Below, in pieces: positions 6,226 through 21,816 of a stretch of 21,816 nucleotides of DNA. The notes beneath the pieces were generated by a model. It did no database searches and was not told where the DNA came from. It saw only the letters and a list, made by a program, of their open reading frames with translations. Origin of the DNA: a virus; the IMG/VR virus record IMGVR_UViG_3300039018_000215, positions 1 through 21,816 of that record. One strand, written 5' to 3'. Made by a program: the position numbers and the translations under genes. How positions within the stretch are numbered: the stretch's first letter is position 1; the number at the start of each line of letters is the position of its first letter.

Positions 6226-7424
6226 GTTACACGATAAACCCCGATACCATATCAAGTTCCCTTTACCCCGTGGCGTTTCGCTCCATTGAACCCTCAGGAG
6301 TTATCCAGCAACAAATCAATGTTTACCTTGATGGAACATTGGAAGGATCTTTTTTGGCAGCTCAAACGGGGACAAGTGGAACGTCGGCGATGTTTGACAC
6401 AAATGTTCAATCGTTCTTGATTACTCAGCTTGCACCAAAGACAAACGCCAAAACAAGTTTTTTCGGAAACCTTTACGGGTTCAGTCTTACAAATAATACC
6501 GACGTTATTTCATCATTGTATTGCACGGCGTTTAACCAAACGGTTAATTCATCGGGCTTTGTCGTTACCTCCACGGCTTCGCAAAGCAGCACCACGGCAT
6601 ACGTTTTACCTTCCTTGTTTGTCGATGGGGAATATGACATGGGGGACTTTTATCAACCGTCTGCGAATCCTTTTTTATTCCTGACACAAAGGAATGATTT
6701 TATTAAATGCAATTCATCTGGTAACATATTTTTAAGTTACCTCGGGCGTGGCACAAACGCGGCTCAATTTGAATTTTATTTTAAGTCAGGATCTTCAGCC
6801 GTCACCATTGTTGACAATTTAAACTCCACGGCAACAAATGATTTATATTCATTGTCCGTTGGCGTATCAAATATATTTGGAAGCAGCGCCATTTTTCATG
6901 CTGGCAACTTTCCAACAAATCCAGATTTATACGATTATTACGATGTCTCGGTTGGCTCTTATGACGGAGCATTCACAAGGCGAAGCGAAAGGCAACGTAT
7001 TTACATTTATCCAAATTGTAATGATAATATCGAGCTTCATTGGTTCGGTAATCATGGCGGCGCAGAAAGTTACCAATTCACGGGGCTAATGATTGACAAG
7101 CAAACGAGCAACGCGGACACGTTAAACCTTGCACAACGGTGGAACATTGCCGCAAGTCCAAAGGCAAACACGTTTGATAAAAATGTGATTAAGGTTAATC
7201 AAAGGTCAAACAAAAGCAAGACGGTCACGGTGGCGGTAAGTCATGAAGATGCTTTGTACATTGCCACAATGTTTAATTCTCCTGAGGTGTACATCATTGA
7301 AAATGGCAAATATGTAAACGTCACTATTGCCAACGGGGAGATAAACACGGATAACAACAGGGCGACGGATATTGGTGTTTCCTTTGAAATCATTTACCAA
7401 AATACGCCAGTCGCTCAGCTATGA
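6222..7424 (+). CDS. Minor tail protein (400 aa), Bacteroidota-phage type
   Basis: The ATG at 6222 sits in an ATGA overlap. The protein is beta-rich, Ser/Thr/Asn-rich and lacks signal or membrane segments. Around residues 260-295 it has RIYIYPNCNDNIELHWFGNH followed by G-G-A-E-S-Y-Q-F-T-G, a pattern that resembles the N-x-x-G-G-x-x-x-F-x-F element of tail proteins found just before the large baseplate gene in Bacteroidota phages. The C-terminus (DALYIATMFNSPEVYII, then a beta-hairpin and YQN) looks like a compact domain that contacts neighbours. Its position between connector-like genes and the 811-residue tail protein supports a distal-tail or baseplate role. The specific function is unknown. 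Confidence 0.6.
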   Translation: MSYTINPDTISSSLYPVAFRSIEPSGVIQQQINVYLDGTLEGSFLAAQTGTSGTSAMFDTNVQSFLITQLAPKTNAKTSFFGNLYGFSLTNNTDVISSLYCTAFNQTVNSSGFVVTSTASQSSTTAYVLPSLFVDGEYDMGDFYQPSANPFLFLTQRNDFIKCNSSGNIFLSYLGRGTNAAQFEFYFKSGSSAVTIVDNLNSTATNDLYSLSVGVSNIFGSSAIFHAGNFPTNPDLYDYYDVSVGSYDGAFTRRSERQRIYIYPNCNDNIELHWFGNHGGAESYQFTGLMIDKQTSNADTLNLAQRWNIAASPKANTFDKNVIKVNQRSNKSKTVTVAVSHEDALYIATMFNSPEVYIIENGKYVNVTIANGEINTDNNRATDIGVSFEIIYQNTPVAQL

Positions 7425-9856
7425 TAAAATTATTTATAAATAATAAAGAGGTCGATTTAAACCAAAAGGATGTCAATGTAACCATTGATTATTCCATTGA
7501 AAACATTGAACTCGGAAACATATCTGGGGCGCACTCGAAAAGGAATGTAACACTCCCAGGCACAAAGACAAACATTGAAATATTTGAAAACATTGAGACG
7601 CCTAACGTCATTGTAAATAATGCTTACAAGTTACTTCCTGCACGGCTTGAGGCAAATGGTGTGCCAATACTTACAGGAAAAGCAAGACTTGATTCAGGTG
7701 AATTAAATGCGATGAACCACGGATTCAAGGCGAATAATTACAAGGTTGCATTGATTGGAAACAATGCGGATTGGTTTGCGGACGTGGGTAACATTTTAGT
7801 CAGGTCATTGGGTTGGCAAGACATAACCGTTTCCACGGCGACGGTAAAAGCCAATTACAATCCATTGACTTCCGAACATTGCTTCATCTTGATGAAATGG
7901 AAAGCGTGGGAAAACGAAACGTACATTGTTGACAATGAGTTGACGCCTGCTATTTTTATTTGGCAAATCTTGGAAAAGGCGTTTCAAAATAAAGGATACC
8001 AATTAAACAGTATTTTTAAAACAGATCCTTTCAGTCGCCTAATTATTCCCATGGGACTTAATCTTGATGCTGATTACATTGCGGATTTTGTAAACATGAG
8101 GGCGTCGAATCCTTCACCTTCTTCCTTTGTTTATTCCTCAGGTGATTATGGCACGGTAAACATTGCATTCACAAACGAAACAACTTCACCAAACTTTGAC
8201 ACGGGGGGCAATTACTCGGGCGGCGTTTATACCGTGCCAATTAATGCCTTGTATGAATTAATCGCTGAGTTAAATGTTACCTTAACGGCTTCAATCGGAG
8301 ACTTAAACCAATTCGCAGAACTGATTCTTTTCTTTGAGGTCAATGGAAACAACGTTTCAACGTATGATTTGACAAATGAAACGACGTTAAATGATTCCAT
8401 TGCGCTTGAATTTCTGGGGGACTTGGTGGAAGGGGACACGGTCCGCATAAGGCTGAGATACGAAAACGTAACTTTTAACCTTGTTATCGGTGGTTCATTC
8501 TCCGTGGTGGCACAAAAGGAAGGATTAGAAGAAGGGGAAACAGTAAATTTGCAATACGTTATACCTAATTCATGGTATGTAAAGGATATTATTTCAGATT
8601 TAACAACCATTTTTAACCTTGCATGGGAGACCGACGTACTAAGCAAACAAGTGTACGCGTATCCAAAGGACAATTATACGGTAAGATACAGAGCCAACGC
8701 CAGCGGAGCGATTACCCTTACAACCTTTGACGGCTTTTTTAAGGATACGAATAAATATGACTTGAATACCCGTGACATTGATGGAAGCGAATTAACGATA
8801 TTAGATAATTATAAGTCAAGTCAGGTATTGGCGTATGCCACGGATGATGATACGACGAACAAAGAAGAAGCAAGGCGCGGAGTTAACATTTATTCAGGGG
8901 GTTACAATTTTCCTGAAGATCGTTTCCCAAATGGCATTGAATTTTTATATACAAAGTTCTTTGCCAAAGCGATTCATATAAACGACGTGGCAATTACCAC
9001 GGGTGGAATATACGGGGCACAGATACCCCTTGTTTTCGGTGACGATTATAACACCGTGCCAGACGCTGAGCCCAATTATAACTTGGCACCTCGTTTGCTT
9101 TATTACGCAGGAAGGCGCAGCGGCTTAGACGGATACGTTCGTTTGTTCGATGAGGCAAGTTCGGCGGCGTCGGCTTTTGATTTTCCAGCGGCGTTCATGG
9201 TAAATTACAATGACCCGAGCGGCGGAGATTTTAACCTTTCTTTTTCGGATGAGGTGACAAATTATACAAATGTAATGCAAGGCGTTTTTAAAACGTTTCA
9301 TCTTCAAACGTACAAAAGGATTGAACTTGGAAAGCAATACACGACCTTTGTTAAATGGGAAAACAAAGACATAACGCAATTATCATTCAGGCGCAAGGGA
9401 ATGATTGGAAGCTCAAATTTCATCATTCAAGAATTGGAATACAATCCCAAAAGCAATAGCCCAGCGCGTACCGTTATTTTATACGACGAAAAGCCAAATG
9501 TAAATGACCTAAGCAAAGTATCAAATACCATTACCTTAGCAGGCGCACCGCCTCAGGGTGGCACGGTGACAGGATCGGGAAGCGGATTGGTTGGAGCAAA
9601 TGGAGCGACGGTAAACATTCAGTTATCTTATACGCCGTTCCTTAACTCAATGACCAATATACTTGTATTGGCGGTTAACTCAGGTATAACACAGGTATCA
9701 AACACGAATGCAAATGTACTTGTATTCCAGAACGGGCAAAAGTTGATACCAACAGTTCAGTATATTATCAGTGGTTCAACCATTGGAATCAATGTGAACA
9801 CCCATTACGATGGGGCAAATTATGAAGTTATTGTAAACGGAGTAACAAAAGGATAA
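7421..9856 (+). CDS. Large tail/baseplate protein (811 aa) with C-terminal NGQ module
   Basis: The N-terminus IKLFINNKEVDLNQKDVNVT followed by I-D-Y-S-I-E-x-I and, about 20 residues on, N-V-T-L-P-G-T-K-T-N is a recurring start of large tail proteins in Bacteroidota phages, probably forming a baseplate hub or tail-associated ring. The middle is a long beta-rich region. The last roughly 100 residues form a Gly/Ser linker (GGTVTGSGSGLVGANGA) and a module with VLVFQNGQKLIPTVQYII that resembles two modules in the downstream fibre gene. This suggests a shared adhesion or interaction domain. It starts in an ATGA overlap and ends in TAATG shared with the tape-measure gene. No enzyme motif is visible. 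Confidence 0.65.
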   Translation: MIKLFINNKEVDLNQKDVNVTIDYSIENIELGNISGAHSKRNVTLPGTKTNIEIFENIETPNVIVNNAYKLLPARLEANGVPILTGKARLDSGELNAMNHGFKANNYKVALIGNNADWFADVGNILVRSLGWQDITVSTATVKANYNPLTSEHCFILMKWKAWENETYIVDNELTPAIFIWQILEKAFQNKGYQLNSIFKTDPFSRLIIPMGLNLDADYIADFVNMRASNPSPSSFVYSSGDYGTVNIAFTNETTSPNFDTGGNYSGGVYTVPINALYELIAELNVTLTASIGDLNQFAELILFFEVNGNNVSTYDLTNETTLNDSIALEFLGDLVEGDTVRIRLRYENVTFNLVIGGSFSVVAQKEGLEEGETVNLQYVIPNSWYVKDIISDLTTIFNLAWETDVLSKQVYAYPKDNYTVRYRANASGAITLTTFDGFFKDTNKYDLNTRDIDGSELTILDNYKSSQVLAYATDDDTTNKEEARRGVNIYSGGYNFPEDRFPNGIEFLYTKFFAKAIHINDVAITTGGIYGAQIPLVFGDDYNTVPDAEPNYNLAPRLLYYAGRRSGLDGYVRLFDEASSAASAFDFPAAFMVNYNDPSGGDFNLSFSDEVTNYTNVMQGVFKTFHLQTYKRIELGKQYTTFVKWENKDITQLSFRRKGMIGSSNFIIQELEYNPKSNSPARTVILYDEKPNVNDLSKVSNTITLAGAPPQGGTVTGSGSGLVGANGATVNIQLSYTPFLNSMTNILVLAVNSGITQVSNTNANVLVFQNGQKLIPTVQYIISGSTIGINVNTHYDGANYEVIVNGVTKG
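9716..9835 (+). repeat. NGQ beta-module, copy in baseplate protein
   Basis: These 40 codons at the C-terminus of the 811-residue protein read V-L-V-F-Q-N-G-Q-K-L then Q-Y, then an I-rich strand and A-N-Y-E-V-I. The spacing matches the second half of the two 59-residue modules at 19535-19711 and 20213-20389. Confidence 0.55.
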
Positions 9857-17112: not shown

Positions 17113-18499
17113 TAGAAATTTAAAAAGAAATCAAAGCCCTTTATTGGCTTCGGTGACTTTAGATACCTCAAACACTATGTTAGTGCAAGAGGACATTTTC
17201 AATGAACCTTCAAGGGAGCGGCTTGATTTCACGGGGGCAAAGTGGGTAAGATTTTTCACTCAGAAAGATGACTTTCTTAAAAGTTTAATAGCCATCGTAA
17301 ATAATTCGCCAACACTTAGGCGTATTATTGAGGATAAAGTAAACATGGTTGTAGGTGACGGATTTATCCCTATGAAAGGGAAATCTAACACATTACTTAC
17401 AACCTCAATGAAAGGCGAAGTAATAACCGATGATTCCTTAAACGATATTGAGGAAGTTATAGGTCAGGTCAATTTACATTCCCAAAATTTACAAGAAGTA
17501 TTAGGTGCTTTGGCTTTTGATTACGATGCTTTTGGTAATTGTTTTGCAGAAATTGTAAGGGGAAAGGTTGGCAGTCAGCCTTTCACTTACATTTATCATG
17601 TACCCGTTTACAACATTGGCATCAGAAAAGCCGAGGCTGACCAGATAATTCGTTCTATTGGCATTTACGACAACTGGGAAGAAGTGCCGTTGACGACTGA
17701 GGGGACGTATTACGAGAACGAAGGCTTTAGGGAAATACCGATTTACCCTGAGTTTAAAAAATTAGAGGACGGCACGGAGCGTTCGATTATCCACGTTAAG
17801 CAATACGCGGCGGGGTATTTTTACTTTGGCTTACCTGAGTGGATAGGGGCGAAGATGTGGGCTGAAATGGAATACCGTATTCAGCGGTTTAATACCAGTA
17901 AGTTTGAAAATGGCTTCATGCCTTCGGGTATATTGCAATTCTTCGGTTCAATGACGCAGACGGAAGCCAAAAGCCTTGTCGAGGGAATTGAATCAAAGTT
18001 CACGGGCATGGGCAACAATCATAAATTGTTTGTCCAGATTTTACGAGATGAAAAATTAAAAGCAAACTGGATTCCAACCTCAAAAGAAAACGAGGGCGAA
18101 TTTTTAAACTTGCAAAACTTGGCAGCCTCAGCGATTGTGGTTGCTAACCGTTGGTCAAAGTCCTTAGCGGGATTTGCAACGTCTGGACAACTTGGAACAA
18201 ATCAGCAGATACGCCAAGAAATGGAATACTTGCAAAACACGGTTATCAAGCCACGGCAAAACCTTTTATTATCAAAGATTATTAACCCCTATTTAAACGA
18301 AATAAGCGCTTATAATCCAGCGTTTGTTGACGTTACCTTTGGCATTTCTAATACTTTGCCCGTGTCCTTTATGGGAGATATTGCAGTTGAGCAAAACTTG
18401 TCAATGAATGAGAAAAGAGAAATATTGGGCTTTGCGCCTATTGAAACAGATATAACAATTACAACCCCAACCAATGAGCCAACTGATACAACCGAGTGA
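17066..18499 (+). CDS. Portal protein
   Basis: The 477-residue protein from ATG 17066 contains the usual portal elements: a first helix region with D-F-L-K-S-L-I-A-I-V and R-R-I-I-E-D-K-V-N-M-V-V-G, a central wing with Y-H-V-P-V-Y-N-I-G, then the crown/stem helices R-I-Q-R-F-N-T-S-K-F-E-N-G and Q-I-R-Q-E-M-E-Y-L-Q-N-T-V-I-K-P, and C-terminal E-K-R-E-I-L-G-F. Portals form the dodecameric vertex where the terminase docks and DNA enters and leaves. I prefer ATG 17066 over a longer reading from 17009, which adds hydrophobic, non-portal residues within the upstream gene. Its place downstream of the capsid gene and 13 kb from TerL is atypical. It overlaps the next gene by 26 bases. Confidence 0.85.
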   Translation: MSQIKKTIQATPNRGNRNLKRNQSPLLASVTLDTSNTMLVQEDIFNEPSRERLDFTGAKWVRFFTQKDDFLKSLIAIVNNSPTLRRIIEDKVNMVVGDGFIPMKGKSNTLLTTSMKGEVITDDSLNDIEEVIGQVNLHSQNLQEVLGALAFDYDAFGNCFAEIVRGKVGSQPFTYIYHVPVYNIGIRKAEADQIIRSIGIYDNWEEVPLTTEGTYYENEGFREIPIYPEFKKLEDGTERSIIHVKQYAAGYFYFGLPEWIGAKMWAEMEYRIQRFNTSKFENGFMPSGILQFFGSMTQTEAKSLVEGIESKFTGMGNNHKLFVQILRDEKLKANWIPTSKENEGEFLNLQNLAASAIVVANRWSKSLAGFATSGQLGTNQQIRQEMEYLQNTVIKPRQNLLLSKIINPYLNEISAYNPAFVDVTFGISNTLPVSFMGDIAVEQNLSMNEKREILGFAPIETDITITTPTNEPTDTTE

Positions 18500-19013
18500 A
18501 GTAATAGCTGGCGGCGTGGCAAGACCAACCCCAGCGGATATAAGAATTGATAAGTCACTTATTAGCCCTCATATTCAAGATGCTGAATATCGTTGGATTG
18601 TTCCCGCTATTGGCGTATCGTTTTATGATACATTGGTTGCAGCTAAAGGAAGTTCCACGGCGTTTAGTTCAACGGCTTACCAGCAACTTTGGGACGATCA
18701 ATTAAAATCCTTTTGTGCCAATGCCGTTCTTTACGAGGCGTCGCCTTATATCGTAATGCAGATGGGTTCAAATGGGCTTTATACCCTTGACAATGAATAC
18801 GGGCAAAACGTGGGCGTTGATGGATTAAAATTTTATCAAGATACTTTATTGCAAAGGCTTGACGTAAAAAAGAAAAGGATTAAGGATTATTTATGTTCAT
18901 GCGCTGCGGGTTTAACAGGCTTTGTTTCAAGCGCTATTGGTTGCCCTGAGTCAACTTGCGATGAACATGAAGAAATAACAGACATTTACAATACTTTAGG
19001 CATTGTGCTATGA
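18474..19013 (+). CDS. Head-tail adaptor/connector protein, DUF6712-like candidate
   Basis: The 179-residue protein starts inside the portal's 3' end (26-base overlap), the normal position for an adaptor (gp6/gp15-like) that binds the portal. It has I-R-I-D-K-S-L-I-S-P-H-I-Q-D-A-E, a W-I-V-P-A-I-G-V-S-F-Y-D-T-L strand-helix, and Y-Q-Q-L-W-D-D-Q-L-K-S-F-C-A-N-A, resembling DUF6712-type adaptors of Bacteroidota phages. The tail end is cysteine-containing (C-S-C-A, C-P-E-S-T-C) and otherwise unlike that family. An ATGA overlap links it to the fibre gene. The adaptor role is inferred from position and helix pattern. Confidence 0.6.
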   Translation: MSQLIQPSEVIAGGVARPTPADIRIDKSLISPHIQDAEYRWIVPAIGVSFYDTLVAAKGSSTAFSSTAYQQLWDDQLKSFCANAVLYEASPYIVMQMGSNGLYTLDNEYGQNVGVDGLKFYQDTLLQRLDVKKKRIKDYLCSCAAGLTGFVSSAIGCPESTCDEHEEITDIYNTLGIVL

Positions 19014-21505
19014 TAGAGAAACCAAAGAAAGAAAGGCGATTCCTAAAGGCATTAGGGCGCGTCGGTGAAATACTAATTCAGGAGGTTTTAATTAAAATAG
19101 GGAGTAATTTAATTAAGAAGATTGGAGGCAAAAAAACTTTGCCTTCAATTCTTTTTTTACTTGCTTCCCTTAGCCTCTTTGCCCAGTACCCAGCGACGGG
19201 CAACAAACAAAGACTTGGATTCCAGACCACGGGCGACGGTTTGACTTGGCGCGGTTCATTGTCCGACACGGCAACAATTCAACCAATAAACAACCAAAAC
19301 ACATGGGTCATTCTTGATACCGTTAACCTTAAAATATATTCCTTTGATTTTACTTCCAACGTCTGGAACTTAGTCGGCGGTGGTTCAACGATTGACACGG
19401 CATCATTAAGCAATCGAATAGATTTAAAGTTAAATATAAGCGATACGGCTAATATGCTTTTGCCTTATGCCACTAAAGCCTACGCGGACACAACGGGACG
19501 ATTATACGCAAGGCAAGATTATACGACAGGCGTAACAACGTCAACATTAACATGGACACAAAGTGACACATTGATTCCTGGTGGAGTTACCTTTGTTCAA
19601 GTATATCGCAACGGACAAATATTATTACCATCTCAATATACGATACCCACGTCAACAAGCGTAATTATCGCGGCTTCATCATTCAAAGTCAATGATAATT
19701 ACACGGTGATTTTTCCGCGTGGTGGCGGTGCAGGAAGTGGATCAGGATCGGGAAGTTTAACCTCAATTTCAGGCGGCACGGGAATCCTTGTTTCGCCTGA
19801 CCCGATAACAACCACGGGCACGGTTTCGGCTGACCTTTCAGTATTAATGGAGTTGACTGATACGTCTTTATTAAACCTTACTTCAAGATTTGCGGCAAAG
19901 CAAAATACTTTAGTATCTGGAACAAATATTAAGACAGTAAATTCAAATAGCTTATTAGGCTCAGGAAATATAAGCGTTGGTACATTGGTTGCAGCTGATA
20001 CTATTTCCCTTTCTAACAGGATAAACGCAAAGGACACGGGCACGGTTACAAGTGTTGCCACGGGTTACGGGTTAAGCGGTGGAACGATAACATCCACGGG
20101 AACTTTGTTACTTGATTCAGCCGTTGTATTTTCGAGAATAAGAGATTCGATTGTTGACGTTGCCATTGGGAATGATACCATAAAGATTTTAAAACAGGAA
20201 TACGCACCAGCCACAACCAGCGTTTTAACGTGGACGGTAACGTCAAAGTTTCCTATCCAATTAAAGGCTTATATTTTGGTGTTTAGAAATGGGCAGCTAC
20301 TTATCAATGACCAATATAATTTGACGGACACTAATAAAATTACCATTGTTTCCAATTCTTTTAAGGTAGGCGCTAATTACACTGTGGTAACGGTGTCGGG
20401 AATTGGCTCAGTTGGCACGGGAACATTCCCAAACCCCGTTTATCCTGAGGCAGGGATTGCGGTTAGTACGGGGACAACGTGGACAACGTCTATTCCTAAT
20501 AATTCAACTAATTGGAATATCGCATTTAATGATAAAATAAACAATGCAGCCTTCTCAGGAACAACGACAAAGAAATTAACATTGACCCAATATGACGGCG
20601 GTACATTTGAACCAACGTTTACCGATTTGCAAGGCATTGTTGCGGCTGACACAGCTTCAATGCTTACAAATTACTTGCGCACAGGCACGGCGGCTTCGAC
20701 TTATTTACCTTTGACAGGAGGGACATTGAGCGGTGATTTAGGTATTTCTAAAAGTAGTAATTCAATATTAAGATTATCTTCGGCAGACCCTGGAAGCTAC
20801 GGAAAATTAATATTTTCTTCAAATAATGGTGGTTTTTTAAATTACGGTGCATCAATAGAATCTTCTGGTGACGGCGTTGGAGTAGATGTTGGTAGTTTAA
20901 ATTTTCTTACAGGATATGGAACGGTAAGAACCAATAGAATGACAATAACACCAACAGGTAACTTAACTATTGTAAATAGCGCTACAATCGGCGGCACACT
21001 CGGTGTAACAGGCGCAACGACACTTGGCTCAACATTAGCGGTTTCGGGCAACATCACCGAAGACAACAACAATGTTCTTACCAACCTTGACACGGCATCT
21101 TTATCAAGTCGCATTGACCTTAAATTAAATAAAACGGATACCGCATCTTTATCAACGAGAATTGATGCCATTAATTCAGGAGGTAATCAAATTGCAAATA
21201 ACAATAATTCTACCCAAACAATTAGTAATCTAAGTGGACTAAGTAATTATTATTTATGGATTAATAATCCAAATACTGTTACCATAACTTTACCAAGTCC
21301 TTCAGCAAATAACAATAAAATGATAACGATTAAAAATACTGGCGCGGGTGCAGTATTTTCAGCAAGTTCAAATGTTCAACCGCTTGCTAATCCAACGCCT
21401 CCAGCAACACTTGTAAATCTAAACGTTATACTTGCCTCAGGCGGTGGCAAATGGACTACAATGGTTAGCAATGGATTTGAATGGGTAAAAATGGCTGGTA
21501 ATTAA
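19010..21505 (+). CDS. Tail fibre-like protein with internal signal-peptide-like segment (831 aa)
   Basis: Residues 1-43 form a basic amphipathic helix region. A hydrophobic stretch PSILFLLASLSLFA (45-58) then gives way to Q59-Y-P-A-T-G, as if cleaved by signal peptidase I at A|Q. The body is repeat-rich: DTASLSNRIDLKLN modules at both ends, two 59-residue NGQ modules, G-T-V-T-S-V-A-T-G-Y-G-L-S-G-G (about residues 345-360), V-S-G-T-N-I-K-T-V-N-S-N-S-L-L-G (about 301-316) and Y-L-P-L-T-G-G-T-L-S-G-D-L (about 564-576), all typical of phage tail fibres. The C-terminus is a compact beta domain (L-W-I-N-N-P-N-T-V-T-I-T-L). No S74 self-cleaving peptidase is seen. It likely binds the host surface. 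The paralogue at 21522 shares the start of the mature part. AT-rich patches at 20740-20960 and 21170-21340 suggest exchange. Confidence 0.75.
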   Translation: MIEKPKKERRFLKALGRVGEILIQEVLIKIGSNLIKKIGGKKTLPSILFLLASLSLFAQYPATGNKQRLGFQTTGDGLTWRGSLSDTATIQPINNQNTWVILDTVNLKIYSFDFTSNVWNLVGGGSTIDTASLSNRIDLKLNISDTANMLLPYATKAYADTTGRLYARQDYTTGVTTSTLTWTQSDTLIPGGVTFVQVYRNGQILLPSQYTIPTSTSVIIAASSFKVNDNYTVIFPRGGGAGSGSGSGSLTSISGGTGILVSPDPITTTGTVSADLSVLMELTDTSLLNLTSRFAAKQNTLVSGTNIKTVNSNSLLGSGNISVGTLVAADTISLSNRINAKDTGTVTSVATGYGLSGGTITSTGTLLLDSAVVFSRIRDSIVDVAIGNDTIKILKQEYAPATTSVLTWTVTSKFPIQLKAYILVFRNGQLLINDQYNLTDTNKITIVSNSFKVGANYTVVTVSGIGSVGTGTFPNPVYPEAGIAVSTGTTWTTSIPNNSTNWNIAFNDKINNAAFSGTTTKKLTLTQYDGGTFEPTFTDLQGIVAADTASMLTNYLRTGTAASTYLPLTGGTLSGDLGISKSSNSILRLSSADPGSYGKLIFSSNNGGFLNYGASIESSGDGVGVDVGSLNFLTGYGTVRTNRMTITPTGNLTIVNSATIGGTLGVTGATTLGSTLAVSGNITEDNNNVLTNLDTASLSSRIDLKLNKTDTASLSTRIDAINSGGNQIANNNNSTQTISNLSGLSNYYLWINNPNTVTITLPSPSANNNKMITIKNTGAGAVFSASSNVQPLANPTPPATLVNLNVILASGGGKWTTMVSNGFEWVKMAGN
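19394..19450 (+). repeat. DTASLSNRIDLKLN repeat, copy 1
   Basis: Nineteen codons, D-T-A-S-L-S-N-R-I-D-L-K-L-N-I-S-D-T-A, that recur near the end of the same protein (21089-21145) with 16 of 19 residues identical; variants with the S-L-S-N-R-I core lie at about 20000. Confidence 0.7.
19535..19711 (+). repeat. NGQ beta-module, copy 1 in fibre
   Basis: Fifty-nine codons from T-T-S-T-L-T-W-T to N-D-N-Y-T-V-I, with V-Y-R-N-G-Q-I-L in the middle. Aligned without gaps it is 24/59 identical to copy 2. A Gly/Ser linker follows (GSGSGSGS). Confidence 0.75.
20213..20389 (+). repeat. NGQ beta-module, copy 2 in fibre
   Basis: Fifty-nine codons from T-T-S-V-L-T-W-T to G-A-N-Y-T-V-V, with V-F-R-N-G-Q-L-L. 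Same length and ends as copy 1, so it is a tandemly duplicated domain within the fibre. Confidence 0.75.
21089..21145 (+). repeat. DTASLSNRIDLKLN repeat, copy 2
   Basis: Nineteen codons, D-T-A-S-L-S-S-R-I-D-L-K-L-N-K-T-D-T-A, matching copy 1 in register; the A-S-L-S-x-R-I-D core continues once more directly after it. These are probably coiled-coil or beta-helix turns of a trimeric fibre. Confidence 0.7.
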
Positions 21506-21521
21506 TCATTAAAACATAAAC

Positions 21522-21816
21522 ATGAAACAACTCCTTTTCCTCCTCCTTTTCCCTTGCTTATGCGTGGCACAGTACCCGGGCAATGCAGGGCAAAAGATAA
21601 CACTTGGAGAACAAACGACGGCAGACGGGCTCGTTTGGCGTGGTGTATTAAACGACACTGCCTTAATCACACCATTTAGCGATACAAGTGCATACATCAT
21701 TCTTGATACGGTAAATAACAGGTTTTACAATTACAAGAGAAATACAAACGCATGGACGCAGCTCAATCTTTTGCCTTCCGATACAACATCTATAAATTAC
21801 GTTAACACTTATGGCA
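21522..21816 (+). CDS. Second fibre-like protein with signal peptide (3' truncated by window)
   Basis: The ATG at 21522 opens a frame that is still open at the window end (98 codons). Residues 1-16 (MKQLLFLLLFPCLCVA) are a classic short signal peptide with a cleavage-like A16|Q17. The mature start Q-Y-P, L-G-x-Q-T-T-x-D-G-L-x-W-R-G, I-L-D-T-V-N and N-x-W aligns with residues 59-122 of the upstream fibre at about 45% identity (29 of 65 aligned positions by eye), so the two are tandem paralogues. This gene lacks the 43-residue basic lead that the first carries. The function is probably host binding or surface degradation, but the C-terminal part is missing here. Confidence 0.75.
   Translation, partial: MKQLLFLLLFPCLCVAQYPGNAGQKITLGEQTTADGLVWRGVLNDTALITPFSDTSAYIILDTVNNRFYNYKRNTNAWTQLNLLPSDTTSINYVNTYG

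Follow-up and report, generated by a model that had tools for sequence, protein, structure and literature searches.

The question raised by this locus is whether a tailed phage might send its own tail fibres out of the cytoplasm before they become part of the virion. At the end of the window (the whole stretch of DNA analysed here, a 21.8 kb IMG/VR virus record) lie two tandem fibre-like genes, both with an N-terminus that resembles a signal peptide, and the virions of tailed phages are taught as wholly cytoplasmic products.

Gene neighbourhood and layout of the fibre genes

The tailed-phage genes found in the window encode a terminase large subunit (TerL), a tape measure, a Clp-type prohead protease, a portal and a DUF6712 protein. 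Indirect evidence suggests that the host of this freshwater phage is a member of the Bacteroidota, because the best match to its TerL, at 93% identity, lies on a contig assigned to a Bacteroidia MAG, followed by Riemerella and Nonlabens phages at 44–47%. The DUF6712 gene lies between the portal and fibre 1 genes, and its stop codon overlaps the ATG start of fibre 1 (ATGA). In complete relatives the gene order is portal, DUF6712, fibre 1, fibre 2, gene 3, holin (PF05105), a 97-aa gene and amidase (PF01520). The product of gene 3, of about 200 aa, also begins with a Q-rule type N-terminus (MRYLFLFLPLFSFA↓Q and variants; arrows mark predicted cleavage sites); fold and PDB searches with gene 3 and with the N-domain common to the two fibres gave nothing interpretable. 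The features discussed below, all on the plus strand, are as follows.

18474–19013, plus: DUF6712 gene (PF20459), directly upstream of fibre 1
19010–21505, plus: fibre 1 reading frame, 831 aa, start ATG
19010–19138, plus: fibre 1 residues 1–43, basic N-terminal extension (net +8; dN/dS 0.11)
19139–19183, plus: fibre 1 residues 44–58, hydrophobic core and putative signal peptidase I (SPI) site, SLFA↓Q (from pattern, conservation and dN/dS)
19184–19369, plus: fibre 1 putative mature start Q59 and N-domain common to fibre 2 (from sequence comparison)
19370–21502, plus: fibre 1 shaft and C-terminal region (this copy without a family match; relatives' bodies are mosaic and resemble tail fibres)
21522–21816 (window end), plus: fibre 2 reading frame, open, 98 aa
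21522–21569, plus: fibre 2 putative signal peptide, MKQLLFLLLFPCLCVA, then ↓QYP
21570–21816, plus: fibre 2 putative mature start Q17 and N-domain common to fibre 1, incomplete at the window end (from sequence comparison)

Export signals at the N-termini

That both reading frames carry a hydrophobic stretch ending in A↓Q, with the Gln beginning the motif QYP, had been noted in a first-pass annotation of this DNA and is confirmed in the sequence, as are Gln59 and Gln17 as the positions of the predicted mature starts and the location of the signal-like segment of fibre 2 (MKQLLFLLLFPCLCVA↓QYP from 21522) at the very N-terminus. In fibre 1, a 43-residue extension precedes the hydrophobic core and SLFA↓QYP. 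This extension, modelled by AlphaFold2 as a long helix at low confidence, is basic, with a net charge of +8, but is not made of basic residues throughout, as it holds 12 K/R and 4 D/E. The resemblance between the two mature starts likewise stands: they are 50% identical across 62 residues (BLASTP E 5e-20), a little more than the 45% or so originally given.

In Bacteroidota, signal peptidase I exposes a Gln in about 71% of its substrates across the phylum (PMC5837995, PMC10653852). The two fibres resemble the proteins that follow this Q-rule in their hydrophobic core preceded by a basic n-region, in the small residue at position −1, in the Gln at +1, and, indirectly through TerL, in a Bacteroidota host; they differ in that the rule was described for cellular proteins, whereas here it concerns phage tail fibres, and in that fibre 1 has an unusually long basic n-region. 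A first scan with the fibre 1 N-terminus found 208 relatives in viral contigs, and further ones were added by scans with fibre 2 and with an alignment. All 235 distinct N-termini passing the motif filter have Gln at +1, following Ala in 218 and Gly in 17. That same filter left out of the count one subclade that has lost the Gln (ISYA↓SIDSIPYP), an exception that weighs against our preferred explanation, even though ISYA↓S is plausible as an SPI site without Gln.

Upstream of the conserved mature start, by comparison, the sequence has been replaced repeatedly. Several cores that cannot be aligned with each other sit on it (GGKKxLPSILF..., NK(R/K)QGL..., KLPKKRETL... and MKNIFYILLLLPTIIFA, with GGKK-LPSILF..., NKRQGLS... 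and KLPKKRETLS... among the variants), and a further type (MLNKFLKFIILF...; in one fibre, L165, the plain leader MLNKFLKFIILFIFPISLFA) does so without any extension. All fibre 2 alleles lack the extension as well. Within the GGKK type of fibre 1, the core evolves at a dN/dS of 0.41, the extension at 0.11 and the mature part at 0.12–0.16; the 43-residue extension is thus translated and constrained, and a fast-evolving core between two constrained segments is the pattern expected of a signal peptide.

The first-pass annotation had also suggested that the signal-like segments could be used as virion anchors. On such a reading, the hydrophobic segment would be an uncleaved signal anchor that tethers the fibre to the virion or to a membrane, with the fibre 1 extension remaining cytoplasmic or binding the tail. 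The strong constraint on that extension would suit such a role, as a throw-away leader need not be constrained. We nonetheless judge an anchor to be quite improbable, because the core is fast-evolving and exchangeable for unalignable sequences while the cleavage residues (Gln at +1, A/G at −1) are invariant in the counted set; moreover, the L165 fibre and fibre 2 do without the extension, and a tailed virion has no membrane to be anchored in. It could also be argued that these N-termini are hydrophobic by chance, or are products of misannotated starts, and have no export role. Composition shuffles fit a loose pattern (a hydrophobic stretch of eight residues together with [AGSC]↓Q) in 2.5% of cases over the first 75 residues and in 3.2% over the first 40. 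Against this stand the conservation of the signal in the 235 distinct N-termini, a start region translated under selection, the lack of conservation of an internal start (a TTG at 19139 with an upstream GGAGG, replaced by ATA or TTA in many relatives), and a signal property shared by three adjacent genes, so that we find this explanation hardly credible. Among the ORFs of three complete relatives, the pattern occurs in a single block made up of fibre 1, fibre 2 and gene 3, and, at a stricter threshold, in none of the other 176.

Other routes and readings of the fibre 1 N-terminus were considered and rejected. A lipoprotein processed by SPII would have Cys rather than Gln at +1; a T9SS cargo would carry a C-terminal secretion domain, for which there was no NCBIfam or Pfam match; the twin-arginine-like motif is (E/P)R(R/K)FLK and not RRxFLK, and lies about 30 residues before the core; and, in the case of a programmed frameshift at the A run, the alternative frames are not conserved. 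Based on pattern, conservation and replacement history, we are highly confident that fibre 1 and fibre 2 carry genuine host-type Sec/SPI export signals of the Q-rule kind, in agreement with the suggestion made at first pass that the proteins may be exported.

Fibre identity and proposed place in the virion

The fibre 2 proteins of relatives end, in many alleles, in a Peptidase_S74 domain (PF13884), the endosialidase chaperone of S74 tail fibres and spikes, and the bodies of relatives match tail-fibre PHROGs as well as, by tblastn, annotated tail fibres of Pseudomonas, Nitrincola and Roseobacter phages. The matched tail fibres from these three groups have their own N-termini without signals, and the S74 fibres matched here, such as that of Synechococcus phage S-B28, have no signal peptide either, unlike the fibre 2 family. 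Fibre 2 of the window is truncated by the window end, and the chaperone and fibre matches come from relatives; no tail-fibre family was matched by the fibre 1 body encoded here, a point against our preferred explanation, so that the fibre identity of this copy rests on its family. In that family, the N-domain of fibre 1 alleles is on average 81% identical, compared to 32% for the C-terminus, with 14 C-terminal clusters in 49 alleles; for fibre 2 the corresponding figures are 60% and 34%, with 13 clusters in 55, while an 811-aa tail protein used for comparison is 86–97% identical. A conserved N-domain with exchangeable, mosaic C-terminal modules is the way in which receptor-binding fibres evolve. 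A captured host adhesin was rejected, as a pattern search of 84,980 bacterial and archaeal genomes found no close relative of the N-domain, which is found in phages.

The main rival to a virion role, and in our opinion a doubtful one, is that these fibres are exported without being virion parts, and act in the periplasm or envelope, for example as adhesins or in receptor masking; the latter would amount to superinfection exclusion or to keeping progeny off debris, and altered adsorption at the host surface, raised at first pass, stays within this rival. The genuine export signals are compatible with such a role, as is the adjacency of a third exported partner of about 200 aa, the product of gene 3, and the Q-rule genes of Porphyromonas gingivalis phages have been proposed to alter the envelope (PMC10367356). 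Conversely, the N-domain occurs in phages but not in the cellular genomes searched; mosaic C-termini and S74 chaperones are typical of receptor-binding fibres; the three complete relatives show no other large variable protein that could be a receptor-binding candidate, and analogous Cellulophaga proteins are noted as virion components. With regard to the P. gingivalis phages, their Q-rule genes are of unknown function (PMC10367356; repeated in PMC10653852); they are similar to the genes studied here in that Q-rule signals occur on Bacteroidota phage genes, while the proteins of the window family are recognisable fibres and can be tied to the Cellulophaga virion evidence.

This evidence comes from Cellulophaga phages phi10:1 and phi19:1 (NC_021802 and NC_021799), whose fibre/spike blocks with N-terminal signals, like that of the window, end the tail genes. 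Database record notes state that gp091, gp092, gp093 (pectate lyase) and gp094 (tail fibre) of phi10:1, and gp101–gp104 of phi19:1, were identified in virions by MS/MS. All eight of these fibres and pectate-lyase spikes start with clear signal peptides, seven of which end in A/G↓Q (e.g., MKHTISIVLFFILSLGLNA↓QTV) and one, that of gp104, in G↓K; no such N-terminus was seen on the head, tape-measure and other tail proteins inspected. These proteins, noted as virion components by MS/MS, differ from the window fibres in their plain, short signals. By the tests made they are analogues of the window fibres, with no homology seen, which is a point against our preferred explanation; so is the fact that virion preparations can contain periplasmic proteins set free when cells lyse, which touches the MS/MS notes. 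The first-pass expectation that true Sec signals would be unusual on fibres agrees with textbook phages, but the Cellulophaga records list signal-bearing proteins among those identified in virions, and export and virion membership are therefore not alternatives.

A pectate-lyase spike with a Q-rule leader occurs in Assiduviridae (phi10:1, phi19:1 and Nekkels), in Pachyviridae (phi19:3, phi46:3 and phi13:2) and in Duneviridae (Ingeline), and the same body, without a leader, is carried by phi17:2 and by the crAss-like phi14:2, in which an MS/MS note also places the leaderless spike in the virion. No such signal was present on the fibres of phi12:1, phi17:1, phi38:1, B124-14, RAP44, P12024L and 11b, so that such leaders characterise particular lineages and are not general in Bacteroidota phages. 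It is an evenly balanced conjecture that several unrelated Bacteroidota tailed phages finish their virions outside the cytoplasm, with Sec-routed receptor-binding fibres and depolymerase spikes that host enzymes trim and cap in the periplasm and that dock on tails at lysis, and with export-type and cytoplasmic versions of the spikes being swapped between families.

The account that we favour, with moderate confidence, is that fibre 1 and fibre 2 are paralogous, receptor-binding tail fibres that would be made as Sec preproteins, exported by the host translocon and cut after A/G by signal peptidase I, the newly exposed Gln then probably becoming pyroglutamate, as it does in the host's own Q-rule proteins. 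The fibres would fold in the periplasm, many fibre 2 alleles with the help of their C-terminal S74 domain, and finished cytoplasmic virions would meet them only once the adjacent holin and amidase lyse the cell, at which point the fibres would dock on the tail; such docking fits the position of the genes beside holin and amidase. The sequence supports a signal peptide conserved as such, a fibre-type architecture and a gene block beside the lysis genes. For the window phage we infer the cleavage, the periplasmic folding, the pyroglutamate and the docking at lysis; virion proteins with such signals are on record for other phages, by database notes only. The cultured marine phages with the same type of signal suggest that some tailed phages add fibres outside the cell interior.

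We found no description of Sec-exported virion fibres in the open-access literature searched, subscription papers being outside that scope, nor did the open-access papers searched mention the signals of the phi10:1 and phi19:1 fibres. A paper on North Sea flavophages does not use the term "signal peptide" (PMC8776804), and phage DGR proteins are stated to be without signal peptides (PMC6199706). Were these fibres Sec substrates, Sec and SPI activity late in infection would decide progeny adsorption, periplasmic enzymes could modify the fibres, and fibre supply and virion assembly would be separated in space and time. This mechanistic question could be answered at once with existing cultured phages, and possibly with existing proteomic data.

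Glycosylation motifs and a hairpin in fibre 1

The Bacteroidota O-glycosylation motif D[ST][AILVMT] is enriched in fibre 1 (13 occurrences versus 4.0 expected), in fibre 2 and in gene 3, and is not enriched in other virion proteins of the window or in isolate fibres. We rejected it as proof of export, as a mild enrichment is also seen in two of seven related fibres from other hosts, and none in the exported fibres of the Cellulophaga phages; it is a family-specific hint only.

At the junction of extension and core, the fibre 1 reading frame contains one further element.

19115–19160, plus: terminator-like hairpin with T tract

This hairpin is confined to the GGKK clade. Among 65 haplotypes, synonymous diversity is 0.09 in codons 46–52, compared to about 0.35–0.46 in most other stretches and 0.20–0.26 immediately upstream and in two other segments; the low value may be partly due to coding bias, as the codons of lowest diversity are the T-rich ones of the hydrophobic core. 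The hairpin pairs covary (three pairs with double changes, 14 cells), with a score reached by none of 500 shuffles and slid controls that were all much lower. The hairpin may serve to adjust transcription between the structural genes on one side and the fibre and lysis genes on the other.

Leader variants in fibres and spikes

In L165, a relative of the window phage, the upstream genes differ and the fibre N-domain is the same; there a plain leader, lacking the 43-residue basic extension, stands ahead of this common domain.

L165 (contig 3300032313_001109), 4983-8204: fibre gene region, N-domain same as in the window fibres

The Gln that signal peptidase I (SPI) leaves at the mature N-terminus under the Q-rule has been lost from one fibre 1 subclade (L163, L166, L176, L182, L190, L206, L210 and L218), in which the N-terminal site, ISYA before the cut and SIDSIPYPITGNK after it, is non-Q and SPI-like. 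Among other Bacteroidota phages, a single pectate-lyase spike body is found with or without a signal peptide in phages from different families, and a small gene of Flavobacterium phage FCL-2, located outside the structural block, encodes a product with a fibre-like start.

phi14:2 (NC_021806) gp083 and phi17:2 (NC_021798) gp054, versus phi10:1 gp093: pectate-lyase spike comparison, Cellulophaga phages
FCL-2 (NC_027125), 45363-45806: 147-aa gene, Q-rule leader MKTIVITLLLSISTYS before and QVGIATTTPTETLDVNG after the cut

Gene 3 and the O-glycosylation motif

Relatives carry a third exported gene, gene 3, 3' of the fibres, and its product is about 200 aa long with a Q-rule leader.

L143, 10022-10618: gene 3
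L149, 16394-17017: gene 3
L165, 8213-8815 and 8866-9489: two gene 3 copies, a duplication

The AlphaFold2 model (mean pLDDT 73) points to a long helix linking two beta domains, and the sole informative match in a fold search was BFVD entry A0A516L8Z3 (E 5.6e-7). Across the window and its relatives, fibre 1 (window 19184-21502), fibre 2 and gene 3 are enriched for D[ST][AILVMT], the O-glycosylation motif of Bacteroidota; no enrichment of this motif was seen in Cellulophaga exported fibres.

Fibre 1 repeats and hairpin

The 811-aa tail protein (window 7421-9856) has a C-terminus that, by eye, resembles the fibre 1 repeats, with their VFxNGQxL...Y pattern.

Window 19115-19160, + strand: terminator-like hairpin with T tract, lying within the reading frame of fibre 1

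Within the GGKK clade, the fibre 1 relatives with a GGKK-type hydrophobic core, this hairpin shows synonymous-site conservation and covariation, and it is possible that it acts as an attenuator between the structural genes and the fibre and lysis genes.
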